Shown: positions 31,597 to 48,874 of the stretch, piece by piece
Layout of the letters: every line of letters starts with the position of its first letter
How positions within the stretch are numbered: the stretch's first letter is position 1
Assembly: GCF_009674605.1 (NCBI RefSeq)
Contig: NZ_WKJO01000003.1
Span: forward strand, 124,001 to 188,000
DNA from: Haloferax litoreum
GTDB taxonomy: Archaea; Halobacteriota; Halobacteria; Halobacteriales; Haloferacaceae
Length of the DNA: 64,000 nucleotides
Reading direction: 5' to 3'
The notes under the pieces: model-generated
What the model saw: the letters and a program-made list of their open reading frames with translations, nothing else
What the model was told of the DNA's origin: nothing
Database searches by the model: none
Program-made: the position numbers and the translations under genes

Positions 31597-31615
31597 ACAC
31601 CACTGTGTCCGCAGT
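31597..31615 (-). other. Origin recognition box-like element (ORB 1)
   Basis: On the minus strand ACTGCGGACACAGTGGTGT, a full match to the 19-bp consensus ACWSCGGACAYNGTGGTGT shared with the copies around the orc gene. It is isolated, about 2.4 kb left of the main cluster. Confidence 0.7.
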
Positions 31616-32128
31616 ATCGTCACACTAGACTCCGTGAGAGTCACGAATTCAAGAATATCGCGACGACCAAAGTGGACACACCAGAGAGTGAGAGAACAGT
31701 GAAAAGTTTGTAGAATGTTCAAAATTTGTGAAAGTTGTAGAATGCTCGCGAGGTGGAGATTGTCGACGAGTTATACACGTTGGAGAATGTGTGGTGTGGT
31801 CTGGACGGGCAGTCGAACCCCGGTCAGGGACGAGGACCTTTGACGAAGACATCGAACAGTGTGCCGAATCGTACGCGAAGAAGTGTGGGTCGAAAGGTGG
31901 TAGGACTGAGCAGTGGGTCGACGTAGCGAGTTCGACCAACGTCACGGATACATCCACGAACACGACCCACAGTCTCCAATTTCCTCACAGTGAGCAACGT
32001 GGAGTATGGGGACACTTCCGAGACGGTTCTCGCGGTTCGGACAGCGTCCACTGGGCAGAAGTGGCACACCGTCCACAGAGTGCCCACCGTGTGCCAATTG
32101 AGCACAGCTCAAAATCCGCAAACAGTAC

Positions 32129-32355: not shown

Positions 32356-33180
32356 ATGTCGAGAGCAGTGAGCGTTTCACTTCAGAAAGGTGGCGTCGGG
32401 AAGACGACGATTGCCATCAACCTCGCAGACGCGTTAGCCGCACGAGACAACGACGTCCTCCTCATCGACCTGGACCAGCAAGGGAACGCAACCGAAGGGG
32501 TCGGAATGAAAGACGCCTACGAGTCGGCAGACCCGAACATCGGCGACGTCCTCACAGACGACGACCCAATCGACGTTCGAGAGACGATTCACACACGCGA
32601 GAGTTTCGACGTGATACCCGCGCACGTCGACCTCGACGACATCGAAGACCGAGTTCGAAACTCCACGTTCGGCGTCCTCTGGGTGCGCCGTCGCATCGTC
32701 GACCCACTACTCGACGACGACTACGACTACATCGTCATCGACTCACCACCGAGTCTCGGACCACTCTCGGATGCAGCGCTCATTGGAACGGGACACGTCG
32801 TCGTTCCCCTCCTCATGAGCGAACCCAGTGTGAGCGGGTTCGAACGGATGTTCGAACAGCAAATCGGGCCGATTCGTCGCGAAGTCGAACTCGAAATTTT
32901 GGCAATCGTCCCGAACGACCTCACAGGGAACAACGAAGAGCGGCGAATCATTCGTGACCTCGAAGAGTCGCCCTTCGAGAAGTTCATTCCCGAGTTCGCT
33001 CGTTCGGACCTCTTCGACGACCCCGAGTCCAAAGGTCCCGGAATCCGTCACCGAATCGCGTTCAGTCGGGCGTGGCGTGACGGAAAGACGCTCCGGGAGT
33101 ACGACCCGTCGAACGACATGCTCGACAGACTCGACGAACTCGCCGCAATCGTCGAGCGAGGAGGACCGGAAGATGCCTAA
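32356..33180 (+). CDS. parA: ParA/Soj-type partition ATPase
   Basis: 274 residues. Deviant Walker A KGGVGKTT at residues 11-18, LLIDLDQQGNATEGVG (A'), and DYIVIDSPPSLGPLSDAAL (Walker B) identify the ParA/MinD superfamily, chromosome/plasmid-partition branch. No membrane-targeting helix of MinD type is seen at the C-terminus. ParA ATPases position DNA together with a DNA-binding partner. The neighbouring acidic protein overlaps its stop codon and is the candidate partner. Placement beside an orc1/cdc6 gene and palindromic DNA fits a role in origin segregation. Confidence 0.93.
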   Translation: MSRAVSVSLQKGGVGKTTIAINLADALAARDNDVLLIDLDQQGNATEGVGMKDAYESADPNIGDVLTDDDPIDVRETIHTRESFDVIPAHVDLDDIEDRVRNSTFGVLWVRRRIVDPLLDDDYDYIVIDSPPSLGPLSDAALIGTGHVVVPLLMSEPSVSGFERMFEQQIGPIRREVELEILAIVPNDLTGNNEERRIIRDLEESPFEKFIPEFARSDLFDDPESKGPGIRHRIAFSRAWRDGKTLREYDPSNDMLDRLDELAAIVERGGPEDA

Positions 33181-33901: not shown

Positions 33902-34016
33902 ACACACACCGTCGTTTTACTCACGTGATTCCCGTCGTCGAGAGACGATGAGTAACTGACGGGGCTTCGGTAGTCGACGGCGTTCCGGTGACCGATGGCA
34001 CCAACGTGTCGTCAAA

Positions 34017-34035
34017 ACAGCGGACATGAAGGTGT
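34017..34035 (+). other. ORB-like element 2
   Basis: ACAGCGGACATGAAGGTGT, plus strand. Matches the consensus except AA before GGTGT. Confidence 0.6.
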
Positions 34036-34170
34036 TCGGGTCTCTTCTGTGTTCCACAGTTGCCCCCTCGGTGTCGTCCAGAACACGTCGGTTTCTGAAT
34101 TGCTCGGAGACGGACCGTCGACGTGTGAGACTCGAAACGGTGGACTTCCCACCGAAGGCGGAGGTTTCGG

Positions 34171-34189
34171 ACCCCATCATGTCCGGAGT
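34171..34189 (-). other. ORB-like element 3
   Basis: Minus strand ACTCCGGACATGATGGGGT. Confidence 0.6.
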
Positions 34190-34358
34190 AATCGAGGAGT
34201 ACCGTGGATGGAAGCCTCGATTGTGTACGGACCCATGGATAAGAGTCGCGAAAGTGCAGGTTGCTTCCGAGACGGGAACTCGAGACTCCAGCGGAGTTCA
34301 GACAGCGAAGTTAACGAGGAGACACGGGGGCTAACCCCCACGAGACGCGGTAACAGAG

Positions 34359-34377
34359 ACACCACGATGTCCGCAGT
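34359..34377 (-). other. ORB-like element 4
   Basis: Minus strand ACTGCGGACATCGTGGTGT, a full consensus match, left side of the A/T-rich block. Confidence 0.75.
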
Positions 34378-34474
34378 TCACGGGAGAGGCGAAGCCACAG
34401 AGTAGAGAAACGTGAGAGAGTTCCGAACACGGTGACTGACCGCCTCACTAACGGGTCGAAGGAGACGAACACTC

Positions 34475-34493
34475 ACACCACTTTGTCCGCTGT
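34475..34493 (-). other. ORB-like element 5
   Basis: Minus strand ACAGCGGACAAAGTGGTGT, immediately left of the A/T-rich block. Confidence 0.75.
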
Positions 34494-34557
34494 TCTCGGG
34501 TGAAAACGGTAGGGGGAGTGAAACGGTGAGAGGTGTTATGTTAGTTGCACGAGTCGG

Positions 34558-34672
34558 CAGGTAATAAATTAATTACAATTGGCTATTCTCAGTTTTAGTC
34601 CTTCTCCACTACGGATTTGGTTTAACATGTACTAATATAAATCTTTCTTAAATTAACTACTCTCAAACTCTG
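34558..34672. other. A/T-rich duplex-unwinding element
   Basis: A/T-dominated stretch including GGTAATAAATTAATTACAAT and AATATAAATCTTTCTTAAAT, flanked by ORB-like element 5 on the left and 6 on the right in inverted orientation. Best candidate for the melting site of the origin. Confidence 0.75.
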
Positions 34673-34696
34673 GCCCTTCCACCTTCGAGTGCTAGA

Positions 34697-34715
34697 ACAG
34701 CGGACACAGTGGAGG
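34697..34715 (+). other. ORB-like element 6
   Basis: ACAGCGGACACAGTGGAGG followed by GGGTG: a long G-run as in known ORB elements. Overlaps the region just upstream of the orc TATA box. Confidence 0.75.
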
Positions 34716-34734
34716 GGGTGTGTTGCACCCTGAG

Positions 34735-34742
34735 TATATAAA
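34735..34742 (+). promoter_or_regulatory. TATA box of orc1/cdc6
   Basis: TATATAAA about 66 bases upstream of the ATG at 34808, lying between ORB-like elements 6 and 7. Orc protein bound to these boxes would cover its own promoter, which suggests autoregulation. Confidence 0.6.
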
Positions 34743-34750
34743 CAACGGGA

Positions 34751-34769
34751 ACAGCGGACACTCCGGACG
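34751..34769 (+). other. ORB-like element 7 (diverged)
   Basis: ACAGCGGACACTCCGGACG followed by CGGTGGT: the CGGACA half is intact and the G-rich half is displaced by about seven bases. Confidence 0.5.
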
Positions 34770-34807
34770 CGGTGGTTTTATCAACGAAGTGGTCGAATTG
34801 TGTGAGT

Positions 34808-36058
34808 ATGCCCCTCTTCGAGCGAGACACCGAGATTTATCGGGACCGGGATGCCCTTCGGGAGGATTACCAACCCGAGGAACTCGTGGGGCGTGACGAG
34901 GAACTCCGGACGTTCCAGGCGGCGCTTCAACCGGTAATCAATGGTGAACAGCCGAACAACATCTTTCTCTACGGAAAGACGGGTGTCGGAAAGACGGCAG
35001 CGTCTCGATACTTACTCAGTCACCTCCGTGAAGACGCGAGTCGGTACGACGACATCCATCTGACCGTTATTTTCTTGAACTGTGATGGGCTGACGAGTTC
35101 GTACCAGATTGCGACCCGTCTCGTCAACGAGTTCAGGACCGAGTCGAACCAGATCAGTACGACTGGATACCCACTCGGGTCTGTCTACGAGATGCTCTGG
35201 CAGGAACTCGACAAGTGCGGCGGGTCGATTATCGTCGTCCTCGACGAGATTGACCACGTCAACGACGACAGTATTCTCTATCAACTTCCTCGCGCACGCG
35301 CGAATGGAAACCTCTCCGAGGCGAAGGTCGGCCTCATCGGCATCTCGAACGACTTCTCGTTCCGAGACGACCTCTCGCCGAAGGTGAAGAGTTCGCTGTG
35401 TGAACAGGAGATTCACTTCCCGGCCTACAACGCGAAGAACCTTCAGGCGATTCTCGAACAACGCGCCGAAGTCGCGTTTCGTGAGGGTGTCCTCTCCGAC
35501 GAGGTGATTCCACTCTGTGCGGCCTACGGGGCGAAGGACGCCGGTGACGCCCGGCAATCTATCGACCTCTTGATGAAGGCCGGTGACTTGGCTCGCGACG
35601 ACGATACCGACTGTATCACGGAAGAGCACGTCAAACGCGGGCGCCGAGCCCTCGAGCGTGGCCGAATCAAGGAAGGTATCAACGGCCTCACCGAACACGG
35701 TCACCTCGTCCTCTACTCGCTTTTGACACTCGAACTCGAGGGGGAGACACCGATTCGCTCTCGCGACGTTCGACCGCGATACACCCGCTTTGCCGAACTC
35801 GCGAACCGCGACCCACTCGTCCCGCGTCGGATGCGAGACCATCTGAGCGAACTCGCGATGCTCGGTATCGTCTCTGTCACCGAACGAAACGAGGGCCGTC
35901 GGGGTGGGACCTACCGCGAGTACGCCCTCGACATGGACGTCGGACTCATCGTCTCGGCGATGCGTGACACGATCGACCTCGTCGGTGTCCACGAGAGCGT
36001 CGAACCGTACCTCGAACCCGAGAAAGAGAGCACACTCGACGACTTCGTAGAACAGTAA
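34808..36058 (+). CDS. cdc6: Orc1/Cdc6 replication initiator
   Basis: 416 residues from ATG 34808 (MPLFERDTEIYRDRDALREDYQPEELVGRDEEL), the typical start of haloarchaeal Orc/Cdc6 proteins. AAA+ motifs: FLYGKTGVGKTAASRY (Walker A), IIVVLDEIDHVNDDSILYQL (Walker B), LIGISNDFSF (sensor 1), YGAKDAGDARQSIDLLMKAGDLA (sensor 2 arginine). The C-terminal third (LVLYSLLTLELEGETPIRSRDVRPRYTRFA ... YREYALDMDVGL) is the winged-helix DNA-binding domain. It should bind the 19-bp boxes on both sides of its gene and recruit MCM at the A/T-rich element. Confidence 0.95.
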   Translation: MPLFERDTEIYRDRDALREDYQPEELVGRDEELRTFQAALQPVINGEQPNNIFLYGKTGVGKTAASRYLLSHLREDASRYDDIHLTVIFLNCDGLTSSYQIATRLVNEFRTESNQISTTGYPLGSVYEMLWQELDKCGGSIIVVLDEIDHVNDDSILYQLPRARANGNLSEAKVGLIGISNDFSFRDDLSPKVKSSLCEQEIHFPAYNAKNLQAILEQRAEVAFREGVLSDEVIPLCAAYGAKDAGDARQSIDLLMKAGDLARDDDTDCITEEHVKRGRRALERGRIKEGINGLTEHGHLVLYSLLTLELEGETPIRSRDVRPRYTRFAELANRDPLVPRRMRDHLSELAMLGIVSVTERNEGRRGGTYREYALDMDVGLIVSAMRDTIDLVGVHESVEPYLEPEKESTLDDFVEQ

Positions 36059-36102
36059 CACCCACGCGAGTGTGTCTCCGAGAGAGCTCACATCGTTCGA
36101 TA

Positions 36103-36121
36103 ACTGCGGACACAATGGTGT
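36103..36121 (+). other. ORB-like element 8
   Basis: ACTGCGGACACAATGGTGT, preceded by GATA as in other copies. Confidence 0.75.
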
Positions 36122-36332
36122 AGGAGTCGAAAGCGACCCGACTCAGTTCTGACGTGAGTGGACAGCGGCGAAAACGGTGAGCGGCAGATGGCGTATCTGC
36201 GTGTACTGAAGACTGTGGCCCAAATCGACGCGACGAATTAAACTATATGATTCAGCGATTCCGACGAGACGCTCACACCATCACGTTCCACTTGGTTCCA
36301 GAACTCCCTCCGTCGGTTCTCCGTCGAAACCA

Positions 36333-36351
36333 ACACCACGATGTCCGGAGT
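36333..36351 (-). other. ORB-like element 9
   Basis: Minus strand ACTCCGGACATCGTGGTGT. Confidence 0.7.
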
Positions 36352-36463
36352 AATCGGGAGAGTCCGTGAGTCGGGTGTCGTACCCCAGAGGGTTCGACGA
36401 GGTGGTGAGTCTTCGAGAGTAAGGACACGATTTGAGTGATTTGAGGGCAGAAAAGCGTCGATA

Positions 36464-36482
36464 ACTGCGGACATGGTGGTGT
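36464..36482 (+). other. ORB-like element 10
   Basis: ACTGCGGACATGGTGGTGT, a full consensus match. Confidence 0.8.
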
Positions 36483-36567
36483 TCTCCTCATCCCGAAACG
36501 GAACGGCCAACTGGATATTATATCGCCACATGAGATTTATTACTACTCCCATCCCTCCCCGTCCATT

Positions 36568-36586
36568 ACAGCGGACACGTCGGTGT
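36568..36586 (+). other. ORB-like element 11
   Basis: ACAGCGGACACGTCGGTGT. Confidence 0.65.
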
Positions 36587-36676
36587 AGACGTGACTTTCC
36601 TGATGCTATCTCTCCACGTGAGGTGTGGTAACTTGTACATCCTATGAGTTATCCGTCTCGGCGTCTGAGTAAACAC

Positions 36677-36961
36677 GTGAGCGAAAATCAAGGGCGTCGA
36701 AATCTCCGAATGCCCAACGATAACGAGCTGTTCGCGGTCGTCACCGAACACAACGGTGGTAACCACGTGCGAATCCGCTGCGAAGACGGCAAGAACCGAA
36801 TGGGCCGCATCCCCGGCCGCATGAAGTACCGCACCTGGATCAACGAGGGCGACGTCGTCCTCGTCGAACCGTGGGACTGGCAGGACGAGAAAGCCAACAT
36901 CGAATGGCGCTACACTGGCGAAGACGCGGACCAACTCCGTCGCGAAGGCCACATCCAGTAG
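36677..36961 (+). CDS. eif1A: Translation initiation factor aIF1A
   Basis: 94 residues from GTG 36677 ([22 protein letters not shown]), chosen because archaeal eIF1A proteins begin with this GRRNLRMP block; a longer frame from 36644 adds an unconserved tail. The OB-fold core has [52 protein letters not shown]. aIF1A binds the 30S subunit A site and promotes initiator tRNA binding and scanning-independent start selection. It sits immediately right of the origin boxes, as single gene. Confidence 0.96.
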
Positions 36962-37397
36962 ACTGGACTCTCCCGAAAGGGATATTGGACACGTGAACTG
37001 GAAGCCGCCGATTTAGTCACGACTCTGTGTAGGACGGCTCCGGTACGACTTCTCTCCCGTACATAACAAATCCACCATCGACGTGCAACTCGAGTGTCGA
37101 CAATCGCGTCGGAATCGACTGAACTATCCGAAAGATGGTCCGGTAGTGACCTCAAAAATACTTGGATTTTGATACTACTACCGTTCCTGACTGGATGCTG
37201 CCATCATGTAGCCTCAATATGTTGGGGGCGGCAATAGGTTTATCAAACTTGTAGGGCAAGTCTACACTAATGAATTACCAGTTTTATATCGGTTTTTTCG
37301 TCTCCTCGGCGCCATCGAAAATTCTGTCTCATTTCGAATACTTCTCGGCGTTGGTCAGGCCCGCGTCTGCGTCGCTTGGGCAACATAGGTGTTCCCG
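36962..37397. promoter_or_regulatory. Long leader region of the kaiC-like gene with ATAACAAA motif at 37063
   Basis: 435 bases with no gene. ATAACAAATCCACC begins at 37063, the same element as in the glycan island. A/T-rich segments (37145-37175, 37230-37250, 37268-37310 including GTTTTATATCGG) are likely promoter DNA for the downstream gene. Confidence 0.5.
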
Positions 37398-38873
37398 ATG
37401 AGTGGGACGTCGAACCCAGAGAGACTTTCGACGGGTGTCGACGGACTCGACTCGATTCTCCACGGCGGACTAATTGCCGGTCGAAGTTACCTGATTCGTG
37501 GTGAGCCGGGCACCGGGAAGACGATTCTCGGCACACAGTTTCTGAAGGCGGGCGTCGACAACGGTGAGACTGCGCTGTTCATCAATCTCGAAGAGTCCGA
37601 AGCGGACATTCGACAGAATGCCGCGTCGCTTGGCATCGACTTAGCAGGCGTGGAGTTTTTGGACCTGAGTCCCAGCGCCAACGTCTTCGTCGAAGACCAA
37701 TCCTACGATATCCTCTCGGCCAGCGATGTCGAGAAGGAACCATTCATCGATGCTGTCACCGAGGCGGTTTCCACGCTCGACCCGGACCGCGTGTTCGTCG
37801 ATCCGATTACCCAGTTGCGTTACTTGACGCCCGACGAACACCAGTTCCGAAAGCAGGCCATCGGATTCATGCAGTATCTCACTGGGCAGGGGGCGACGGT
37901 GATGTTCACCTCGCAGAACACGTCTGAAACGCCTGACGACGACCTGCAGTTCATGAGCGACGGCACGATACAGATGGAGTCACAAGAGATGGGACCGACG
38001 ATTACCGTTCCGAAGTTCCGTGGTTCGGACGCCGACCGAGGAACACACACGGTATCGATTACTGGCGACGGCATCACCGTCTTTCCCCAGATGAAACCAC
38101 TGGAGCATTCTCGTGAGTTCAAAAAAGAGTCGGTCCCCTCCGGTGTCCCCGAAATCGACGAACTCCTCAACGGTGGTCTCGAACGGGGAACTGTTAGTAT
38201 CATTAGTGGCCCAACCGGTGTCGGAAAGACGACACTCGGCACACAATTCATCAAGCAGGCGGCAGGAAGAGGAGAACGGTCGGTTCTCTACCTCTTCGAA
38301 GAGAGTTATTCGACGTTCCGCGAACGGAACGAATCGATAGGCGTTCCCATCTCACAGATGGAAGACCAAGGGTCACTTCACATTCGGGAGATGGAACCGT
38401 TGAACCTCTCCCCACAGGAGTTTGCACACCAAGTCAGAACCGAAGTCGAAGAACACGGGGCAGAAATCGTCATGATCGACGGCATTAACGGGTACCAACT
38501 CTCCGTCCAAGGCGGTCACGATACGCTCATCAGAAAGCTGCATGCCCTCGGGCGGTATCTCAAGAACATGGGGGTCACGGTCATCTTCGTCGACGAACAC
38601 CAACACGTGACAGGCGAGTTCAGTGCGACTAACTCGGGAGTCAGTTACCTCGCTGACAACATCGTGTTCCTCCAACACGTCGAACTCAACGGCGAACTGC
38701 AGAAGGTCATCGGTGTGCTGAAAAAACGGACGACGAAGTTCGAACGAACGCTCCGGCAGTTCGAAATCACCGAACAAGGGGTGACAGTCGGAGAACCGAT
38801 GACAGACCTTCGAGGGATTCTTTCGGGTTCGCCCGAATGGCGCGAGCCGACCAAGCAGACGACCGATGAGTAA
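37398..38873 (+). CDS. KaiC-like double RecA-domain ATPase
   Basis: 491 residues from ATG 37398 (MSGTSNPERLSTGVDGLDSILHGGLIAGRS). Two tandem KaiC domains: the first with Walker A GEPGTGKTILG and LEESEADIRQN, the second (from ~240, SGVPEIDELLNGGLERGT) with GPTGVGKTTLG and LFEESYSTFRER. Each has a glutamate pair after strand 2, as in KaiC. The overall length is near that of cyanobacterial KaiC. There are no kaiA or kaiB genes nearby. Such KaiC2/circadian-clock-like proteins in archaea are often encoded with histidine kinases and are thought to be signal switches; two kinase genes follow here. Confidence 0.9.
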   Translation: MSGTSNPERLSTGVDGLDSILHGGLIAGRSYLIRGEPGTGKTILGTQFLKAGVDNGETALFINLEESEADIRQNAASLGIDLAGVEFLDLSPSANVFVEDQSYDILSASDVEKEPFIDAVTEAVSTLDPDRVFVDPITQLRYLTPDEHQFRKQAIGFMQYLTGQGATVMFTSQNTSETPDDDLQFMSDGTIQMESQEMGPTITVPKFRGSDADRGTHTVSITGDGITVFPQMKPLEHSREFKKESVPSGVPEIDELLNGGLERGTVSIISGPTGVGKTTLGTQFIKQAAGRGERSVLYLFEESYSTFRERNESIGVPISQMEDQGSLHIREMEPLNLSPQEFAHQVRTEVEEHGAEIVMIDGINGYQLSVQGGHDTLIRKLHALGRYLKNMGVTVIFVDEHQHVTGEFSATNSGVSYLADNIVFLQHVELNGELQKVIGVLKKRTTKFERTLRQFEITEQGVTVGEPMTDLRGILSGSPEWREPTKQTTDE

Positions 38874-38905
38874 TCGAACGTGTAGAAAAAGGATTAGACA
38901 CCACG

Positions 38906-39979
38906 ATGCCAAACAATTCATCTAACTCTCCATCGTGGACCGCAGAGCGGCAGAACCGCTCTGCCGACGATATGCGACTGCTCATCTTGTTATCTCACGA
39001 ACGAAACAGTCGCATTCTCGCAGAAAAACTCACGCCGTATTACGATATCTGCACTGAAAATTCTGCCCTGACGAGTGGCGAGTTCGACCTGTGTATCGTG
39101 GACTCGAACACGTTGAGACGATTTCGTTCGGAACTCGAAGCTCACACTCGCGCCGAAGAACCGGTCTTCTTACCGTATCTTCTCGTCGTAAACCGCGACG
39201 TTGACCAAGTCGACACCGCGGCACTCGAACTGGTCGACGAGGTTATTTCGATGCCGATTGTGTTGGAAGAACTCGCCCCCCGTCTCAAGTCACTCCTTCG
39301 GACTCGTCACCTGACATGGGAAATGAGCGAGCGCGATCAAGTCGAAGAGATGGCCGCTACCATCTCACATGACCTTCGGAACCCGCTGAACGTCGCCAGG
39401 GGGAACTTGGAACTGGGGCGTGAGACGAACGAAGACGAATTTTTCGAGACGACGGCAGACGCGCTAGACCGAATGAGTACGCTAATCGACGACCTCCTCT
39501 CGTTTGCCAAACAGGAGTACGCGACTCCTGACTTCGCTCCGGTCTCGATAGCTGACATCGCCACTCGGTCGTGGGACCTCCTCGAAACAGGTGACGCGAC
39601 CTTCCACCTCGAACTTGACGACGATACCGTCATCGTGGCGGATCCGAGTAGGCTACAAGAACTGTTCTCCAACCTCTTTCGAAACGCGTGCGAACACAAC
39701 GACGGACAACTAACCGTGACCGTTGGACCCCTTTCAGACGGGTTCTTCGTCGCGGACGATGGTGCCGGCATCCCCGTCGCGGACAGGGTGTCCGTCTTCG
39801 AGACCGGATACTCGACGAATACTGACGGGACCGGTTTTGGTCTCCCCATCGTCAAACGAATCTGTGATGCGCATTCGTGGACAGTGTCGGTCTCCGATAG
39901 CACGACCGGTGGGGCACAGTTCGACATCACTGGGGTCCAATTCATCGACGGGGTGTCTGCTTCGCCCGGAGGTGAGTAA
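38906..39979 (+). CDS. Histidine kinase with degenerate receiver-like N-terminus
   Basis: 357 residues. Residues ~25-130 look like a receiver fold without the phosphate-accepting pocket (MRLLILLSHERNSRILAEKL ... FDLCIVDSNTLRRF ... PYLLVVNRDVDQVDTAAL ... DEVISMPIVLEELAPRLKSLLR). H-box ATISHDLRNPLNVARGNLEL, N-box NLFRNACEHNDG, G1 DDGAGIP and G2 GTGFGLPIVKRI form the HisKA/HATPase core. No membrane segment, so a cytoplasmic sensor. It starts 32 bases after the kaiC-like gene and is followed 8 bases later by another kinase, suggesting one transcript. Confidence 0.9.
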   Translation: MPNNSSNSPSWTAERQNRSADDMRLLILLSHERNSRILAEKLTPYYDICTENSALTSGEFDLCIVDSNTLRRFRSELEAHTRAEEPVFLPYLLVVNRDVDQVDTAALELVDEVISMPIVLEELAPRLKSLLRTRHLTWEMSERDQVEEMAATISHDLRNPLNVARGNLELGRETNEDEFFETTADALDRMSTLIDDLLSFAKQEYATPDFAPVSIADIATRSWDLLETGDATFHLELDDDTVIVADPSRLQELFSNLFRNACEHNDGQLTVTVGPLSDGFFVADDGAGIPVADRVSVFETGYSTNTDGTGFGLPIVKRICDAHSWTVSVSDSTTGGAQFDITGVQFIDGVSASPGGE

Positions 39980-39987
39980 CAGCACCC

Positions 39988-42351
39988 GTGTCGAGTCGCT
40001 CACCACGTTCGTTCGACGAACGACCGTGCCGAATCGTTCTCCGCCTCGGCCACACCGAAAACAGGAACGTGATGGCGGATTGGATTCGTGAAGAGACGCC
40101 GCACACACCCGTCGTCGAAGGCGACGAGGGGTACCCGACGGGTGACCTCTGTATCGTCGACGCCGAGATGGTCACAGAACACTGGGAGTGGCTCCAGTCG
40201 AAAAAAGAATGCAGCCACCGGGTGTTCTTTCCAATCTTATTCGTCCACTCGGGAGAGAGCCAACGTATCACGGATTCGGTCTGGAACGTCGTAGACGAAG
40301 CAATCTCGACGCCGATTCGATTACCCGTCTTCGAACGCCGATTGAAGAACCTCTTACAGCGACGGATGCTCTCGGAGAATCTCCACCGTGAACTCGCAGT
40401 CACGAAAGACAAGTACAGAGCCGTCTTCGACGCGAGCAATGACGCAATCGTCGTCATCGACCCCGAACGCGACACAATCGATGATTCGAACCGACAGGCG
40501 AGTGAACTGCTCGGTTACTCGCGAGCGGAGTTGGCCGCGCTCTCTCCGAGGAATCGCCTCTTTTCGTCCGATTCCGACAGTTTCGATAGGTTCGTCGATT
40601 CAGTTCTCGGGACTGGCGAAGGCTGGACAGACGAACTCATCGTGACGAAACGAAGTGGCGACACCATCGTCGCCGAAGTCTCCGCAAGTGTCCTCGAAAT
40701 GGACGACGATTCGGGTCGTACCCGACTCGTGGCCAGCATCCGCGACATTACCGAACGACAGCAGCAACAACGCGAACTGGAACACCAACGCGACCAACTG
40801 GACGAACTACACAGAATCAACCGAACGCTCCGAAAGACGACACAGGTCGTCGCCCGTGCGTCGAGTCGTCACGAACTGGAACGCGAAGTGTGTGAGCAAC
40901 TCGCCCGCTCCGACAGGTACGAATTCGCGTGGATAGGAACCGTCGACGAAGCGACCAAAGATATCGTTCCACGACAGACCGCTGGCCCCGCTGGAGAGTA
41001 CCTCGAATCCGTCACGATTCGGGCGGACGACTCACCGACTGGTCGGGGCCCCGCGGGAACTGCGGTGCGCGAATGCTCGGTCAGTATCGTACAAGAGATT
41101 CAATCTGACCCACAGTTCGAACCGTGGCGCGACCGAGCGGCCACGTTCGGTGTCCACGCCGTCGCTGGCGTCCCGATTCACTACGATGGCGAGGTGTACG
41201 GCGTCTTGGCTATCTACGCCAACCTCCCGAACGCGTTCGACCGGGTCGAACAGGCGGTACTCGCGGACCTCGGTGTGACCATCGGTCACGCCATCAACGC
41301 ACTTCAGGCGCACACCGAAGTGAAACTCTTCGAAGAAGCGGTCGAACAGGCCGGGCACGCGATATACATCGCAAACGGGAATGGTATCATCGAGTACGTG
41401 AACTCGGCGTTCGAAGAGAGTACCGGGTACACCCGTGACGAAGTCATTGGCCGGCATCACTCACTTCTCCGCGTGGGTGAGGACGAACAGGCGTTCCCGC
41501 CGGACCTCTGGGAGACTATCTGGGCCGGAGAGACGTGGCAAGATGAGACCACCGGCCGCCGAAAAGACGGCCGACGCCAACACGTCGACCAGACCGTTGC
41601 CCCAATCTCCGGGACCGGTTCCAGTGAGGAGTACTTCGTCGCCGTTCGTATCGACATCACGGACCAGCGACGGAGACGTCAGCAACTCCAGACGCTTCAC
41701 CGCATCTTCCGACACAACATCCGGAACGAACTGAACGTCATTCAGGGCTATCTCGACATCATCGACGAGGTGACGCCACCTGAGACGGCGGAAAGTCCGA
41801 TGTCCAAGATTCGGGCATCGACGGAGGAACTGCTTCAAATCAGTACGCAAGCGCGACGCATCGAGCGGACGTTCGTCGGTGAAGACGACGGCAACACCGT
41901 GAACAAACGGTCGTTCGCCGAAATACTAATCCGACAATGCTCCTCGGCCCGGATGCAGTTCGGAGAGGCGACGGTGGAAATGACCGTTCCCGAAGTCGGC
42001 AACGCGATGGTCGATGCCGAATTCGAAACCGCGCTCGAAGAGATACTCACCAACGCGCTGCGACACAACGACAGCGAGACTCCCCGCGCAGTGTGTGAGG
42101 TGACTGTCGAAGAGACGACACACGATGTCACACAGGCGGTCGTCAGCGTCCGGGACAACGGCCCGGGAATCCCCGAACACGAGCGTCGAGTTCTCAGTGA
42201 GGGTGAAGAGACGCCACTGCTTCACGGGAGCGGACTCGGTCTCTGGTTGGTCAACTGGATCATCAAGGAAATCGGCGGGGAGATACGTATCGACGATATC
42301 GACCCCCGCAGCACCATCGTCACGCTTCGACTGCCGCTGTACCGCCCCTAA
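39988..42351 (+). CDS. Cytoplasmic PAS-GAF-PAS histidine kinase with degenerate receiver
   Basis: 787 residues from GTG 39988. N-terminal receiver-like part (RIVLRLGHTENRNVMADWI ... GDLCIVDAEMVTEH ... VDEAISTPIRLPVFERRLKNLLQ) is a clear paralogue of that in the preceding kinase. Then PAS (~135-255, YRAVFDASNDAIVVIDPERDT), coiled linker, GAF of the bacterio-opsin activator type (~285-440, VVARASSRHELEREVCEQL ... GVPIHYDGEVYGVLAIYA), PAS (~445-565), H-box RIFRHNIRNELNVIQGYLDII, and ATPase motifs ILTNALRHND, DNGPGIP, GSGLGLWLVNWI. Soluble. Likely acts with the KaiC-like ATPase and the smaller kinase; ligand unknown. Confidence 0.9.
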   Translation: MSSRSPRSFDERPCRIVLRLGHTENRNVMADWIREETPHTPVVEGDEGYPTGDLCIVDAEMVTEHWEWLQSKKECSHRVFFPILFVHSGESQRITDSVWNVVDEAISTPIRLPVFERRLKNLLQRRMLSENLHRELAVTKDKYRAVFDASNDAIVVIDPERDTIDDSNRQASELLGYSRAELAALSPRNRLFSSDSDSFDRFVDSVLGTGEGWTDELIVTKRSGDTIVAEVSASVLEMDDDSGRTRLVASIRDITERQQQQRELEHQRDQLDELHRINRTLRKTTQVVARASSRHELEREVCEQLARSDRYEFAWIGTVDEATKDIVPRQTAGPAGEYLESVTIRADDSPTGRGPAGTAVRECSVSIVQEIQSDPQFEPWRDRAATFGVHAVAGVPIHYDGEVYGVLAIYANLPNAFDRVEQAVLADLGVTIGHAINALQAHTEVKLFEEAVEQAGHAIYIANGNGIIEYVNSAFEESTGYTRDEVIGRHHSLLRVGEDEQAFPPDLWETIWAGETWQDETTGRRKDGRRQHVDQTVAPISGTGSSEEYFVAVRIDITDQRRRRQQLQTLHRIFRHNIRNELNVIQGYLDIIDEVTPPETAESPMSKIRASTEELLQISTQARRIERTFVGEDDGNTVNKRSFAEILIRQCSSARMQFGEATVEMTVPEVGNAMVDAEFETALEEILTNALRHNDSETPRAVCEVTVEETTHDVTQAVVSVRDNGPGIPEHERRVLSEGEETPLLHGSGLGLWLVNWIIKEIGGEIRIDDIDPRSTIVTLRLPLYRP

Positions 42352-42403
42352 GTTTCTTCCGAACCGTTTTCGCAGTACCGGCCGTAGCTCGGATACCGTC
42401 CGA

Positions 42404-43612
42404 ATGACTCTCTCACGTGTGTGTTACGACTGCGGTGCGCGAACGAATGCACCGGTCGCGCGATGCGACTGCGGTGAACCGATGTGGCTCGAAACAGACC
42501 CCGAGGGCTTCGACTGGGACGATTGCTCGGACGAACCGGGGATGTGGCGATACGAATCTCTCTTGCCAATCAGTCGACCGGGTGGTATCGCCGACGCAGC
42601 AGGAGGGACACCGCTCGTCACCGATGCCGCAATCGACGCGTTCGCGGGGACGAACGTCCACCTCAAACTCGAAGGCGAACACCCGACAGGAAGTTTCAAA
42701 GACAGAGGGAGTGCCCTCGGAATCGCTGCCGTGGCCGCTGGCTTGGCAGGCGACGGTTCCGCTGTCGGAACCGTCTCGCACGGGAACATGGCGATGAGCA
42801 CTGCTGCGTTCGCCGCCGCCGCAGACCTGCCGTGTGTCGTCTTCGTCCCCGACGACATCCCGTCCGAACGTCTCGCCGTCATCGACCAGTTCGACCCGTC
42901 GCTCGTGACAGTGGCGGGCGAGTACGGCCGTCTCTACGACGAGACACTGCGACTGGGCACAGAACACGGCATCGTCTTTCTCAACTCCGACGTCCCTCTC
43001 CGCGTCGAGGGGCAGAAGACTACCGCACTCGAAATCTGCGAGGCCTTCGCTCCCGACGTTCCGGACGCTATCGTGCTGCCGGTGAGTAGCGGTGGCCACG
43101 CCAGCGGTGTGTGGAAAGCCCTTCGAGAACTCCACGAGGCGGGTGCCATCGCCGACGTTCCGAAACTCTACTTCGTGCAGGCCGCCGCCTGTGCCCCCAT
43201 CGCCGAGGCGTTCGATGCGGGCGCTGACGAGGTGACGAGTGTCGTCGCCGGCGAGACCATCGCCTACTCGATTGCGAACGCGGACCCACCGAGTGGGACC
43301 AGAGCACTCCGCGCCGCACGTGAGACCGGTGGTGCGGTCATCGCCGTCTCCGACGACGAGATTCGCGCCGCGCAGCACGCCTTGGCCGTCGATGCCGGCA
43401 TCACCGTCGAAACCTCTTCGGCCACAGCACTCGCAGGAACCAAACGGGTGGTCGAAGAGGGAACCATCGACCCGTCCGACCACGTCGCCGCCGTGTTGAC
43501 CGGCACGGGTTTGAAAGAGGCGTCTACGGCAGGTTCACCGACGAGCGGAGACCACGTCGAACTGCCCGCTCTCGGCGAGTACCTGACCGAATTCACGGGC
43601 CACGCCGACTGA
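42404..43612 (+). CDS. thrC: Threonine synthase
   Basis: 402 residues from ATG 42404 (MTLSRVCYDCGARTNAPVARCDCGEPMWLE); longer frames run into the kinase gene. An N-terminal Cys cluster (CYDCG, CDCG) is a small zinc ribbon common in archaeal ThrC. The PLP lysine lies in HPTGSFKDRGSA, and SHGNMAMSTAAFAAAADLPCVVFVP and VLPVSSGGHASGVWKAL bind cofactor phosphate. The enzyme converts O-phosphohomoserine to threonine. Alternative fold-II members (threonine dehydratase, cysteine synthase) are less likely given the ribbon and length. A hairpin terminator follows. Confidence 0.88.
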   Translation: MTLSRVCYDCGARTNAPVARCDCGEPMWLETDPEGFDWDDCSDEPGMWRYESLLPISRPGGIADAAGGTPLVTDAAIDAFAGTNVHLKLEGEHPTGSFKDRGSALGIAAVAAGLAGDGSAVGTVSHGNMAMSTAAFAAAADLPCVVFVPDDIPSERLAVIDQFDPSLVTVAGEYGRLYDETLRLGTEHGIVFLNSDVPLRVEGQKTTALEICEAFAPDVPDAIVLPVSSGGHASGVWKALRELHEAGAIADVPKLYFVQAAACAPIAEAFDAGADEVTSVVAGETIAYSIANADPPSGTRALRAARETGGAVIAVSDDEIRAAQHALAVDAGITVETSSATALAGTKRVVEEGTIDPSDHVAAVLTGTGLKEASTAGSPTSGDHVELPALGEYLTEFTGHAD

Positions 43613-43659: not shown

Positions 43660-43670
43660 CTGCGGTGAGA

Positions 43671-43689
43671 ACAGCGGACATGGTGGTGT
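43671..43689 (+). other. Isolated ORB-like element 12
   Basis: ACAGCGGACATGGTGGTGT preceded by GAGA: full consensus match, 7.1 kb from the nearest origin copy, in the 96-base gap between convergent thrC and the YbaK-like gene. Confidence 0.75.
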
Positions 43690-43708
43690 TGATTTCGGTC
43701 CGGTGCGC

Positions 43709-44209
43709 TCACTCGAACACGTCGACGAAACGAGGATTCGACAGTGTTCGTAATCGTTCTGGCGTCAGTCTGAACACCGCCTCTGGAGTTCCTGCGGCGG
43801 CCCAAATCTCCTCGAACGTGTCGAACGTCGGGTCTGCGAGAACCGGACAAACCGTCGTGTGGCATGTCGGTGGCACGCCGCCGATACTCCATCCAGTCGC
43901 CGCTTTGACTTCCGATGCGTTCGCACTCCGGACGGCACTCGGGTCCGCCTCGAATTCGGCCGCTAATTTCGCCTCGTCGACGCGGTTCGCACCGCTCGTG
44001 AGGACGACGACTGTCTCGTCGCCGACGCGCATCACGATGCTCTTGACGATTTGCGCGACGTCGCACCCGATTGCGTCCGCCGCGTCGTCCGCCGTCTTCG
44101 TCCCCTCGGGAAACTCTTCGACGACGGCGTCGAAGCCGTATTCGTCTTTCAGTTGGTCAGCGAACGTCTGCGCCGTGGGATGCATACCCACGGCTTCTGC
44201 GGCTTCCAT
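43709..44209 (-). CDS. YbaK/aminoacyl-tRNA deacylase-domain protein
   Basis: 166 residues with the YbaK/ProX fold: DDAADAIGCDVAQIVKSIVMRVGDETVVVLTSGANRVDEAKLA, ATGWSIGGVPPTCHTTVCPVLADPTF. The invariant lysine in QIVKSIV and the GG(V/I)xP loop belong to this family of trans-editing factors that hydrolyse mischarged tRNA (for example Ala- or Cys-tRNA-Pro). Substrate is not readable. An internal ATG at residue 9 (MHPTAQTFADQL) is an equally good start. 72 bases separate it from the next gene. Confidence 0.88.
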   Translation of the reverse strand: MEAAEAVGMHPTAQTFADQLKDEYGFDAVVEEFPEGTKTADDAADAIGCDVAQIVKSIVMRVGDETVVVLTSGANRVDEAKLAAEFEADPSAVRSANASEVKAATGWSIGGVPPTCHTTVCPVLADPTFDTFEEIWAAAGTPEAVFRLTPERLRTLSNPRFVDVFE

Positions 44210-44281
44210 TATGAACGTTCGCCGACGAGGGGAATCGTGCCGCAGTCACCGAACGAAGTGACGATACTCGACCTGCGAGGA

Positions 44282-45397
44282 TTACCAGTGGTCGTCGAGT
44301 CCAGCGAGCAGTGCCTCTACGTCGGATTCGTCGTTGAACGCGTGGAACGACGCTCGAACAGCGTCGGGTTCCGGAATCGTTCGAACGACGACGCCGTCCG
44401 CCGCGAGTCGTTCGACGGCCAACTCGGAGTCGTCCACGGTGAACGAGACCAACCCAGATTCAGGGTCGGGTGGGCTGACGAGTCTCCCTTCGGGGACGGC
44501 GTCCACGAACTGCGCCGTCAACGTCGAAATCTGTCGTTCGATGCGGTCGAAGCCTATCGCTCGATTGAGGTCCATCGCCTCGCGGAGTGCGACGTGCGGC
44601 GCGGGGTTCGTGGTGCCGATTTCGAAGCGTTTGGCACCGGGTTCGAACTCCATGGTATCACTCGTCGGTTCTTTCACACCGCGATAGCCGACTGCGTGTG
44701 GTTCGAGCGACTCGGCTACCTCTCGCTGGACGTACAGATAGCCGGCACCCCACGGGCCGAGAAGCCACTTGTGGCCGGCGGCGGCGACGACGTCGGCGCC
44801 CCACTCGCGTACGTCGACGGGGAATTGGCCGATTGCCTGCACTGCGTCCACGAGTGAGAGTGCACCGGCGTCGCGGGCGATGTCGGCCATCTCGCGGACG
44901 GGAAGTCGCGTCCCGTAGTTCCAGGTCACGGCGCTGAAACAGACGAGGTCTGCACCCTGGACCGCCTCGGCGTACTGGTCCATATCGAGGCGTCCCCTTT
45001 CGCTCTCGACGACGCGGACTTCGACGCCCTCCTGTTTGAGACGACGCCACGGGAGGATTCCGGCGGGGTGTTCGAGGTCGGTTCTGACGACCACATCACC
45101 GGGTGACCAGTCGAGCGTCGTCGCGAGGCGATTGATTCCGTCGGTCGTACTCTGTGTCAGCGCAATTTCTTCGGTCTCGGCCCCGAGGAACGCGGCGACG
45201 TCCTCTCGAACCTCCTCGTAGGCGTCGAACGCGGTCGGATATGGCCCTTCTTCGGATGGTGAGACGTACTCGTGGTATTCGAGGAACTGGGTCGCCCGGT
45301 CGACGACGCGTCTTGGGCTTGGGCCGTGGGCACCGGTGTTCAGATAGACTGTCTCGTCGAGGGCGGGGATAGACGCACGGAGTTCCGCTGGAGTCAT
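44282..45397 (-). CDS. Class-V PLP aminotransferase (cysteine desulfurase-like)
   Basis: 371 residues. LNTGAHGPSPRRVVDRATQFL near the N-terminus, ALTQSTTDGINRLATTLDW, ALSLVDAVQAIGQFPVDVREWGADVVAAAGHKWLLGPWGAGYLYV with the PLP lysine in AGHKWL, and a C-terminal domain ending VRASFHAFNDESDVEALLAGL. This pattern fits the SufS/CsdA-like subfamily, but no catalytic-Cys loop is evident near residue ~330, so an isopenicillin-epimerase-like or other class-V activity is as likely. Its ATG overlaps the stop of the M20 peptidase gene by four bases, so the two are an operon. Confidence 0.85.
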   Translation of the reverse strand: MTPAELRASIPALDETVYLNTGAHGPSPRRVVDRATQFLEYHEYVSPSEEGPYPTAFDAYEEVREDVAAFLGAETEEIALTQSTTDGINRLATTLDWSPGDVVVRTDLEHPAGILPWRRLKQEGVEVRVVESERGRLDMDQYAEAVQGADLVCFSAVTWNYGTRLPVREMADIARDAGALSLVDAVQAIGQFPVDVREWGADVVAAAGHKWLLGPWGAGYLYVQREVAESLEPHAVGYRGVKEPTSDTMEFEPGAKRFEIGTTNPAPHVALREAMDLNRAIGFDRIERQISTLTAQFVDAVPEGRLVSPPDPESGLVSFTVDDSELAVERLAADGVVVRTIPEPDAVRASFHAFNDESDVEALLAGLDDHW

Positions 45398-46737
45398 GGA
45401 GAATCGTCACCAGATTTGGAACCGCAGGGGATAATAGTGTTTAGCATTCCCACATCTGTGGAATCGAACGTCCCGGTGCCGGTGTCGAGTCGACAGACGA
45501 GTTCGCCCGGTAGTCGGGCGTACACTTCTGCGTTCCCGACGAGTGCATCGACGGTCGTGAACTCGTCGATTGCGTGGACCGTGTTCGTCCCGAGGCCGAA
45601 CTCCACGGTGGGGACCCCGGTGTTTCGCAACCGCTTCGCGTCGCCGCCGCCGGTGGCACTTCGACGGAACACTCGCTCGCCAGTGACGTCGCCGGCGACG
45701 GCCGAGACGGCGTTCGCCAACGGGCCATCGGGGTCTTCGAACGTCCCGATAGACCAACTTACGTCACCAATCTCCACGTCGTCGTGGGTCGAGACGACGT
45801 CACGGACCGTGTCGAGGACGCGAGGCGTATCCACACCCGCCGTCAGGCGAATGTCGAGGTGTGCTTCGGCGACGTCGGGGACCACGTTCACGCTCTCGCC
45901 GCCCGCGACGACGCCGAGGTTCACCGACGGTCGTTCGAACAACGCACGAGATGCCGCCGCACCGAACGTGGGTTCGTAATACTCCACGGACTCGTCGACG
46001 ATGGCTTGGACGACCGGCGGGAGGTCGAACTGCATCTCGTGGAGTGAGGACTCGATGTCGTCGATGGCCCGACAGAGACAGCGAATCGCGTTGGTCCCGA
46101 GCATCGGTCGCGACCCGTGTGCCGACGTTCCGGACGCCTGGAGCGTCAACCAGATGCTGCCACGGTCTGCGACCGTCGTCGAGTACCGACCGTCTTCGCA
46201 CGTCGTTTCACCGATGACACAAGCGTCTGCATCGAGTGGGTTCCGTTCGAGGAGCGTCGGAAGTCCCGCGTCGCCTGCGACTTCTTCGTCGCTCACGAGG
46301 GCGAAGACGACGGTGGATTCGGGGACGGTGTCGGTTTCGACGTAGGCCTTCGCGACGGCGAGCATCGCCGCGACTGCACCTTTCATATCGGTCGCTCCTC
46401 GCCCGTATATTCGGTCGCCTTCGCGCTCACCGAGTGGGTCGTACGTCCACTCGTCGGCGTCGAACGGGACCGTATCGAGGTGTCCCTGAAGGAGGAGTGT
46501 CTGGTCAGTGGAACCGGGGAGTGTTGCGACCAAGTTCGGTTTCTCGGGGTCGGAGACGACTCGTTCCGTCTCGATACCGAGGTTCGAAAAGAACGACTCG
46601 ACCCAGTCGACGACCGCTCGCGTGTCACCCGGCGGGTTCTGCGTATCGTACCCGACGAGTGTGAGCACGAGGTCTGCAATCTCCTCGCGATGCGCACGCA
46701 GATACGTGACCGCCGGCGTGGTGTCGGATGTCGACAT
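45394..46737 (-). CDS. M20 family metallopeptidase (ArgE/DapE-like)
   Basis: 447 residues from ATG 46737 (MSTSDTTPAVTYLRAHREEIADLVLTLVGYDTQNPPGD). Two-zinc motifs: LLQGHLDTVPFDADEW, YGRGATDMKGAVAAMLA, ALVSDEEVAGDAG, and ADRGSIWLTLQASGTSAHGSRP leading to the lid domain; ATGGGDAKRLRNTGVPTVEFGLG near the C-terminus. The family hydrolyses N-acyl amino acids or dipeptides. It is first in a two-gene operon with the class-V aminotransferase. Specific substrate is not determinable. Confidence 0.9.
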   Translation of the reverse strand: MSTSDTTPAVTYLRAHREEIADLVLTLVGYDTQNPPGDTRAVVDWVESFFSNLGIETERVVSDPEKPNLVATLPGSTDQTLLLQGHLDTVPFDADEWTYDPLGEREGDRIYGRGATDMKGAVAAMLAVAKAYVETDTVPESTVVFALVSDEEVAGDAGLPTLLERNPLDADACVIGETTCEDGRYSTTVADRGSIWLTLQASGTSAHGSRPMLGTNAIRCLCRAIDDIESSLHEMQFDLPPVVQAIVDESVEYYEPTFGAAASRALFERPSVNLGVVAGGESVNVVPDVAEAHLDIRLTAGVDTPRVLDTVRDVVSTHDDVEIGDVSWSIGTFEDPDGPLANAVSAVAGDVTGERVFRRSATGGGDAKRLRNTGVPTVEFGLGTNTVHAIDEFTTVDALVGNAEVYARLPGELVCRLDTGTGTFDSTDVGMLNTIIPCGSKSGDDSP

Positions 46738-46888
46738 GGTAGTCTCTGGGTGGATGGTACGAACCGACACTGGATAAGTTTGTTCTCGATGCGCAATACT
46801 GTAGAATGGTGGTGTGTGAGTGTGTCAACCGTCGAAAATGGAGGTGGAAGGGTTCGACCCGTCGGTTCACGGGTCAGTCGTATCGTGG

Positions 46889-47380
46889 TTAGGCGCGTGG
46901 ACCGGTCCACTTCTGGAGGGTCGCAGACGACGACCCAGATTCGGCGGTCCAGACGATACGGAAGGTACCTGCGCCGAGGTCGTCGCTGGTGGAGTTCGCG
47001 AGTGCGGTCACCGTCGTTCCGGCGGCGATGTCGTCACTCGCGCCGACACCTGTGAAGTTGCTGAACGAGTGGGAGTTGAGTGGTGGGTCACCGCCGCCGT
47101 CAGTCGCGTTGAACCCAACCGTACTCGATACAGTGAGTTGACTCGCCGGGATTCCGTCGCCACTCTCGTGGGTAATCTTCAACTCGTCACCGTTGACGCT
47201 GTCGTTCGTGTACTCGAAACTGAAACTCGCCTGTGGTGCCGTCTCACTGACCTGGTCGCCGAGTCCCAGTACGAAGGTGCCGATGACGGCGGCGAGGATG
47301 ACGGTGATAGCGACCATCAGAATGACGCCGATGACCGGTGATACTGCACGTGACTCTGTGAGGAATTTTGTGATTTCCAT
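46889..47380 (-). CDS. pilA: Type IV pilin PilA-like
   Basis: 163 residues. Class III signal: short charged leader [19 protein letters not shown] with prepilin-peptidase (PibD) cleavage expected before AVSPVIG, and the conserved H-domain [27 protein letters not shown], followed by a Ser/Thr/Gly-rich globular domain with N-glycosylation sequons (FNAT, NFTG, ANST). Haloferax PilA proteins share this H-domain and form adhesion pili. The H-domain DNA (47214-47308) is identical to that of the next pilin gene. Confidence 0.93.
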
Positions 47381-47485
47381 TGGTGTTCTCCAAGGTAGAC
47401 CGGCCGACTGCGGGTGATTCGAAAATACTGTTCACCGTTCTGAGCGCTCGTATCCGGTACCTATTGGATATCATGACGTTCTGGA

Positions 47486-47497
47486 ACTATATAAGTT
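47486..47497 (-). promoter_or_regulatory. TATA-like box of first pilin gene
   Basis: ACTTATATAGTT on the minus strand, about 110 bases upstream of the ATG at 47380. A long leader would result. Confidence 0.45.
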
Positions 47498-47634
47498 CAC
47501 ACTGACATTATCGTGCAGTACCGTTGTTTGACCGCTGGTGTGAGGAACTCGACTGTTCCGCCGTGAATGCAAACGAGAGCAGTCGCTCAGCGGTCGAAAA
47601 ACGAGAGATGGGGGGCCAGAAGGTCGTCAGCGGT

Positions 47635-48069
47635 TCAGTTGTTGTAGGTGTACTTCTGGAGGGTCGCAGAGTTAGCACCCGACTCAGAGGTCCAGACGAC
47701 GCGGACGGTGTCGCCTCCTTCGAGGTCACCGTCGAAGTCTACGACGATAGTGTCGCCAGCGTTGAACGTGGAGTCAGCGCCGGTGTTCTTGTCCACTGCG
47801 GAGTAGGTGGTGTCAGAGGTGACCGACACGTTGAGTTGGTCCACCGAGATACCATCGCCACTCTCGTGGGTGATGGTCAGGTTGTCATCGGTCGAGTTGT
47901 AGTCGAAACTGAAACTCGCCTGTGGTGCCGTCTCACTGACCTGGTCGCCGAGTCCCAGTACGAAGGTGCCGATGACGGCGGCGAGGATGACGGTGATGGC
48001 GACCATGAGGATGACGCCGATGACTGGGGAGACTGCACGGGATTCACTGAGGAATGTCTTGATATCCAT
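47635..48069 (-). CDS. pilA: Type IV pilin PilA-like paralogue
   Basis: 144 residues from ATG 48069 ([19 protein letters not shown]); upstream codons in frame are leader DNA. Same PibD-cleavage and H-domain as the paralogue 250 bases away, then a shorter variable domain ([38 protein letters not shown]) with NST and NVS sequons. Expected to assemble into adhesive type IV pili. Each pilin gene has its own A/T-rich promoter, so they can be expressed separately. Confidence 0.93.
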
Positions 48070-48170
48070 TGTTCTATTCAGGACCGGTCTCGACGCCCAC
48101 ATCGTGCCCCCGTATACGGGACTTCGAGCGGCTTCTCAGGCCGATTCCTGTTGGAATACCGTACGTTCTG

Positions 48171-48188
48171 TCTATATTTAATTTCAAG
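48171..48188 (-). promoter_or_regulatory. BRE/TATA of second pilin gene
   Basis: Minus-strand CTTGAAATTAAATATAGA: a GAAA BRE-like stretch followed by an A/T box, about 105 bases upstream of the ATG at 48069. Confidence 0.45.
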
Positions 48189-48340
48189 TAAAATAACCAC
48201 TCCATTTGGCTGGTTTATCGGCGGTTATCTGGCTCCTAACGCCTGAATTCGGGACTTCAGGGGGGCCGAGAAAATTGATTGGGGATTTGTCATTAATAGA
48301 CAAGACCACTTCGCCAACACACAAGCACTCACCGTAGATT

Positions 48341-48359
48341 ACTGCGGACATGGTGGTGT
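48341..48359 (+). other. Isolated ORB-like element 13
   Basis: ACTGCGGACATGGTGGTGT preceded by GATT: identical in the 19 bases to element 10 at the origin, but about 11.9 kb away from it. Confidence 0.75.
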
Positions 48360-48505
48360 CCATGGCACCGATGGACACCGCCTCTCATATCTCTGCTCTG
48401 CGGGCCTTCGGGCCGGTCTGACTCGGCGAAGTTCGGTCTCGTCGCCGGAGAGAAACGCGTGGACTGCTGAGGCGACCGAGTCGGTGTCGGGACGTCGCAG
48501 TCGTG

Positions 48506-48874
48506 TTACTGGGGGGCCTGCCAGAATTCCGGCGTCGCCTCGAAGTCGATTTCGGCGTCGGAAGGTGCGTGTTCGTAGAGTGCGTCGTGGACTGCCTCGT
48601 ACCCTGCGCGTGCCCCCTCTTGTGCGAGTTCGGGGTGGTCGCGCGTGTCGAAGACGATGTTCCACTGCCCGTTCGAGAGGTGCAATCCGAGGATGTACTT
48701 CCCGCGAACGTTCACGAGGAGTTGGTACGCGTGGGGGATGGTCTCGCCGTCGCGTTCGAGGTTGTATCCGCGGACCGCAATCGCTTGCTGGACTGCTTCC
48801 TGTGCTTCGAGTTCCTCCACGAACGACGCGGGAACGGCCGTCGGTGGGAGTGACTCGACGAGTTTCTCGCTCAC
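48506..48874 (-). CDS. Conserved-type hypothetical protein
   Basis: 122 residues, acidic, no membrane segment or signal. Sequence such as EAVQQAIAVRGYNLERDGETIPHAYQLLVNVRGKYILGLHLSNGQWNIVFDTRDHPELAQEG suggests a small alpha/beta domain. I do not recognise a family. It is isolated: VOC gene diverges on the right, pilins on the left. Confidence 0.65.
   Translation of the reverse strand: MSEKLVESLPPTAVPASFVEELEAQEAVQQAIAVRGYNLERDGETIPHAYQLLVNVRGKYILGLHLSNGQWNIVFDTRDHPELAQEGARAGYEAVHDALYEHAPSDAEIDFEATPEFWQAPQ

Follow-up and report, generated by a model that had tools for sequence, protein, structure and literature searches.

The two ORB-like boxes that stand alone several kilobases from a megaplasmid origin of Haloferax litoreum belong to a small set of sites that were found at their own places in every Haloferax sequence compared. 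The reading that we favour, to which we give about an even chance of being right, is that these boxes are ORBs of the Orc3-type initiator kept as satellites of the origin, where they would most likely lower initiation.

The window analysed here is a stretch of 64,000 nt (C3:124001-188000) on a 256,967-bp replicon of a 3.56-Mb Haloferax genome. Its origin (34.0-36.6 kb) comprises an orc1/cdc6 gene, an AT-rich stretch and ten boxes, and is flanked by a parA-family ATPase gene of the replicon upstream (32356-33180, + strand) and by the gene of translation initiation factor eIF1A downstream (36677-36961, +; a landmark taken from the annotation of relatives, with an approximate start). AT-rich palindromes of the form ACAAATT-n-AATTTGT, which are candidate centromere sites, lie upstream of parA at 31478 and 32309, and similar motifs precede parA in several, though not all, relatives. 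The orc1/cdc6 gene (34808-36058, +), one of eight orc-type genes in the genome, encodes a 416-aa protein of the orc3/ori-pHV4 type with Pfam Cdc6 lid and winged-helix domains. In H. volcanii, ori-pHV4/orc3 is a mapped and active origin. Primers for the deletion of H. volcanii orc3 have been published (PMC6063281); the downstream ones match the H. alexandrinus copy of the locus, with mismatches only as many as the engineered bases predict. This match, made through H. alexandrinus, identifies the window locus by its sequence as the Haloferax orc3/ori-pHV4-type origin of the ~257-kb megaplasmid replicon.

Four of the ten boxes form a left cluster at 34013-34497 (cores 34020 (+), 34171 (-), 34359 (-) and 34475 (-)) and four a right cluster at 36099-36589 (cores 36106 (+), 36333 (-), 36467 (+) and 36571 (+)), both recognised by core match and matrix. 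The remaining two, detected with the matrix, directly precede orc at 34693-34772 (+) with a fixed spacing of 54 nt (cores 34700 and 34754). The inverted boxes 34475 (-) and 34700 (+) bracket a putative unwinding element at 34535-34665, defined by its base composition (61-70% AT versus 40% in the window), which is the usual ORB layout. A G-string is the published standard of haloarchaeal ORBs; here a short one is found at the 3' side of the 34700 box only (GGAGGGGG, 3' half GTGGAGG), while the satellites and most cluster boxes end GTGGTGT. Nearly all Haloferax, and several Halobellus too, have a 54-nt-spaced pair with distinctive 3' halves 5' of orc (34693-34808 in the window). The second box of the pair stands just past a TATA-like sequence near 34733, which suggests that Orc may repress its own promoter.

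A block comprising a KaiC-type ATPase gene, two sensor kinase genes and thrC (37389-43612, +) separates the origin from the first isolated box, ORB1 (GAGAACAGCGGACATGGTGGTGTTGA; 43667-43692, +; core 43674-43689), which lies between the 3' end of thrC and the 3' end of a convergent YbaK/aminoacyl-tRNA editing-domain gene (43709-44209, -) that ends 19 nt from the core. The second, ORB2 (GATTACTGCGGACATGGTGGTGTCCA; 48337-48362, +; core 48344-48359), lies between a type IV pilin gene (47635-48066, -) and the facing 3' end of a conserved 122-aa hypothetical gene (48506-48874, -). The intergenic contexts given in the first-pass annotation, after thrC and between pilin and hypothetical genes, were confirmed, and so were the distances of 7 and 12 kb given there, which measure 7.2 and 11.9 kb when counted from the 36467 box. 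The same annotation had described both copies as exact 19-bp matches including the flank. This holds for the letters at 48341-48359 (ACTGCGGACATGGTGGTGT), while those at 43671-43689 (ACAGCGGACATGGTGGTGT) are one base off (A for T at the third base), at a position where A and T alternate among the origin boxes; the likeness of the flank reaches ~5-7 nt upstream of the core, with none downstream. The 16-nt core itself, GCGGACATGGTGGTGT, has three copies in the whole 3.56-Mb genome, at 36467-36482 in the origin, at 43674 and at 48344. The adjacent pilin genes share 174 nt at 91% identity in their N-terminal region (47209-47382 and 47898-48071), the rest being diverged; this may reflect recent conversion or strong constraint.

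When up to three mismatches were allowed, the core matched 14 times in the window, where 0.92 matches were expected, and none of the shuffles gave as many. A 26-nt matrix was trained on the 11 boxes at 31.6-36.6 kb, the two boxes under study being left out. ORB1 and ORB2 scored 35.4 and 34.5 with this matrix, level with the best origin boxes (training range 19.5-37.6), and no match of 30 or above was obtained in 10.3 Mb of sequence simulated under a Markov null. All genome-wide matches to AACNGCGGACANNNNGGTGT with at most one mismatch fall on the origin-bearing replicon, most of them near orc. The shuffles, the held-out matrix scores and the Markov null rule out chance matches, and both boxes are, judged by their sequence, genuine ORBs.

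They are not the sole isolated copies: the same replicon has a third at 31597 and a fourth at C3:209125. The third (31594-31619, -; core 31597-31612) is located between msrA and parA, 2.4 kb from the cluster, and scored 32.7 as a member of the training set. The fourth (C3:209125-209140, L062:9125, -) lies outside the window, 32 nt past the glmS stop and ~49 kb from the last origin box; its matrix match (C3:209122) is the one further match above 17 on all of C3. This glmS box is present in this genome, H. profundi, G006 and H. marinum and is missing in the other Haloferax genomes. Two pattern matches on C2 contigs (G002/G009) were under the matrix threshold and were left out. The H. elongans/H. 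larsenii clade carries another distant single box a few hundred nucleotides upstream of a PAS-kinase gene and ~100 kb away from the origin (L070:7899 and L071:7552, GATTACTGCGGACATRGTGGTGTCGG in both; NZ_CP078065.1:253006). Halobellus species have a single satellite of their own ~2 kb downstream of orc (L088:21562, L150:13487, L152:13273, L153:4122, L154:13192 and L155:13170), which in Halobellus limi follows the phosphoglucosamine mutase gene.

The orc locus was compared with 14 further Haloferax genomes and with plasmids of H. mediterranei, H. alexandrinus and H. larsenii. Conservation in sister species, which had been set as a check on the two boxes, proved complete: ORB1 (by YbaK), ORB2 (by the 122-aa gene) and the msrA box are each found at the orthologous place and in the same orientation in 17 of 17 Haloferax sequences. 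The cores of these three satellites are 92-97% identical in pairwise comparisons, whereas the ungapped 60-nt flanks are 30-41% identical, near the level of unrelated sequence; in gapped 316-nt alignments the box is the best-conserved 16-nt window out of 301 for each of the three. Between 14 and 15 of the 16 core columns are invariant for ORB1 and ORB2. Moreover, ORB1 always keeps GAACA, followed by T at core position 8, and ORB2 always keeps CT before the core and G at position 9. Because the bases at variable positions are characteristic for each site, we regard the satellites as the same inherited sites and not as boxes regained repeatedly. The pattern ACNGCGGACANNNNGGTGT gave 8-12 matches in each of 15 Haloferax genomes and none in its reversed control.

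The surroundings of the boxes are far less constant. Across Haloferax, the distance to orc ranges from 1.4 to 13.8 kb for ORB1 (tenfold) and from 5.0 to 19.8 kb for ORB2 (fourfold). The gene preceding ORB1 is eIF1A in members of the H. volcanii clade and thrC both in the window and in H. larsenii; in H. mediterranei it is an alcohol dehydrogenase gene, and the box occupies a 57-nt gap between convergent genes there. YbaK lies at 19-180 nt from ORB1 in most species, but ~1.1 kb separates the two in H. elongans and H. larsenii. In most Haloferax the pilin gene and the 122-aa gene both adjoin ORB2; the 122-aa gene is 3.2 kb from it in H. profundi, and the pilin gene more than 2 kb in H. mediterranei and H. 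larsenii. ORB2 of H. larsenii (L065:26404-26419) falls within the 3' coding region annotated for an alkaline-phosphatase-family gene and is still intact. Gene neighbours were assigned by tblastn in some genomes. Since the boxes stay while neighbours and orc distance change, the satellites are under selection, as working parts and not debris or relics, and a promoter role is hard to sustain for them.

Outside Haloferax, boxes of this family flank every orc with an identity of 76% or more (18 of 18 loci, from Halobellus, Halogeometricum, Halegenticoccus, Halobium, Halolamina, Halobonum, Halobaculum, Halorubellus, Halostagnicola, Halohasta and two further lineages), mostly with no parA homologue nearby. 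No boxes were found at four full-length orc genes of 60-61% identity among the non-Haloferax loci. A stricter pattern, ACNGCGGACANNGTGGTGT, matched in 28 of 79 Haloferacaceae genomes, and its reversed control in 0 of 79. From this co-occurrence of the box family with the orc subtype across genera, and mostly not with parA, we infer that the binder of the boxes is the Orc3 encoded at 34808-36058.

If Orc3 is the binder, each satellite would hold one molecule of it away from the origin. The satellites may lower initiation by titration, removing free initiator in the way that datA removes DnaA and oriC2D removes Cdc6E. Alternatively, they may pair with the origin cluster through Orc-Orc contacts, the handcuffing seen with iterons in bacterial plasmids. 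The effect on initiation is inferred, as is the binding, and titration or handcuffing is the mechanism that we prefer. At the inc/control loci of iteron plasmids (P1 incA, F incC), initiator-binding repeats off the minimal origin restrain copy number by titration or handcuffing. The satellites would likewise be initiator-binding repeats away from the minimal origin, but they are single ORBs of an Orc/Cdc6 initiator, whereas iteron loci are tandem arrays near the origin bound by Rep initiators. In E. coli, datA holds several boxes and works with IHF to promote DnaA-ATP hydrolysis, and DnaA boxes number in the hundreds. As with datA and the origin-proximal DnaA boxes, the initiator boxes described here are outside the origin yet enriched near it; unlike the E. 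coli boxes, they are three or four high-quality sites that are individually conserved. The enrichment of DnaA boxes near oriC favours titration in E. coli (PMC12371093).

Titration of Orc by the satellites is plausible, with Haloarcula oriC2D as a precedent. In Har. hispanica, oriC2 is repressed, probably through titration, by 11 ORBs that lie within 722 bp downstream of cdc6E (Wu et al. 2014, PMC3936714), and the same paper points out that many haloarchaeal orc genes have ORBs downstream. As in oriC2D, the initiator's own ORB is present here in extra copies outside the origin proper, by a haloarchaeal orc/cdc6 gene, and sequestration is proposed; unlike oriC2D, which is one dense cluster adjoining cdc6E, the boxes are single, 1.4-20 kb off, beside unrelated genes and on a megaplasmid. 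The window satellites do not form the several clustered boxes outside the origin that mark oriC2D and datA, and the matrix detected no second box within 1 kb of any of them, each being single. Other observations speak against titration: with ~10 boxes already in the cluster, three or four single satellites raise the binding capacity little, and sites so near the origin are duplicated almost immediately. If titration were the whole explanation, the sites should also be interchangeable and turn over, whereas each site is fixed in place, which counts against it.

That each site keeps its position so strictly would also suit an architectural or segregation role, in which Orc3 or a partner would bridge the satellites to the cluster, fold or tether the origin and aid partition of the megaplasmid. 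We consider such a role rather unlikely, although several features agree with it. Archaeal SegB has scattered sites near segAB and acts by bridging (PMC12284271), and the few dispersed, individually conserved single sites around the origin resemble such parS/SegB layouts around an origin or partition locus (PMC12284271); their distance is flexible while position along the replicon is kept; parA adjoins the origin in Haloferax; and the three genus-wide satellites (msrA box, ORB1 and ORB2) all read away from the origin. Against it, the glmS box reads inward, which also contradicts a fork-polarity arrangement with all boxes reading outward. Furthermore, parS sites are palindromic and ParB-bound and SegB sites mostly intragenic, whereas the satellites are copies of the origin's own ORB and mostly intergenic. 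The box is not the palindromic or par/seg-linked motif of a parS/SegB-type centromere: it is non-palindromic and common to the origin core, and most other genera have boxes with orc and no parA homologue nearby. The AT-rich palindromes upstream of parA (31478 and 32309) are better centromere candidates.

Regulation of neighbouring genes, which the first-pass annotation had offered as another explanation, is weakened by the comparison. Here Orc3 at the boxes would control transcription or termination of YbaK/thrC and of the pilin/122-aa gene, and we hold this to be unlikely. In this genome all four satellites lie just past a gene 3' end and read towards it (msrA, YbaK, 122-aa gene and glmS), and in the window the pilin gene starts 278 nt downstream of ORB2, both of which would suit local control. 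However, ORB1 lies between convergent gene 3' ends in most Haloferax species, so that it has no promoter to control, and the boxes stay where neighbours were swapped or moved 1-3 kb (122-aa gene, pilin and YbaK displaced by 1.1-3.2 kb). A fixed position relative to one gene's promoter, as expected of a promoter or operator, was not found across species, neighbours and distances both varying; a promoter element is disfavoured by the changing neighbours. A roadblock that shields the origin from transcription running towards it would account for the boxes at msrA, YbaK and the 122-aa gene but fails for glmS and the Halobellus glmM.

Binding by a protein other than Orc3, be it a further Orc paralog or a par-locus DNA-binding protein, appears improbable to us: eight orc-type genes offer candidates, but box presence tracks orc3-type identity across genera and mostly not parA, and different repeats are carried by the one other megaplasmid origin examined, that of C2, and by the chromosomal origin at C1:2265k. 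That the boxes now lack a function, being either relics of an origin once larger or rearranged or else chance matches, is scarcely credible, for although ORB1 lies ~1.4 kb from orc in the H. volcanii clade, where the KaiC-kinase-kinase-thrC block is absent, and its 7-kb isolation in this genome coincides with that intervening block, the 17/17 conservation with diverged flanks and a chance expectation near zero contradict origin rearrangement as the reason for their persistence.

The chromosomal origin at C1:2265.5 kb, beside its own orc, has 8 perfect copies of a different repeat, CACCNNNTTTCCGGTGAA, in ~1.2 kb. Exactly one perfect isolated copy of CACCNNNTTTCCGGTGAA was found ~230 kb off at C1:2035967-2035984 (L128:2968-2985), between convergent bcp and VAT/Cdc48 genes, and a matching single copy occurs in the bcp-VAT intergenic region of 13 of the 14 Haloferax genomes scanned. 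The surrounding stretch of ~100 nt (L128:2930-3050) is strongly conserved overall and also holds TTTACAAACG and ACAAACGCGAAG, which resemble halves of the C2-replicon origin repeat. As these ~100 nt are conserved too, the bcp-VAT element is possibly more than a lone box, either a composite Orc site or an orc-less origin. For the C2-replicon origin repeat (CCTCGCGWTTGTAACC type), no clean distant copy was found. Rfam searches returned no structured RNA around ORB1, ORB2 or the chromosomal satellite.

The satellites are not reported in the open-access literature searched. We tentatively suggest, as a generalisation that is more doubtful than not, that haloarchaeal plasmid and chromosomal origins carry a few individually conserved single ORBs at fixed places, a dispersed Orc system counting, restraining or organising origins that has no described archaeal counterpart; the satellites would then lie 1.4-20 kb from the origin here and ~220-260 kb from the chromosomal one. 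Among negative elements that restrain archaeal Orc initiators, oriC2D was the one found in the open-access literature read. The satellites are precise single sites, conserved genus-wide, at an origin of the type mapped in H. volcanii (ori-pHV4/orc3), and strains of that species with ori or orc deleted exist.
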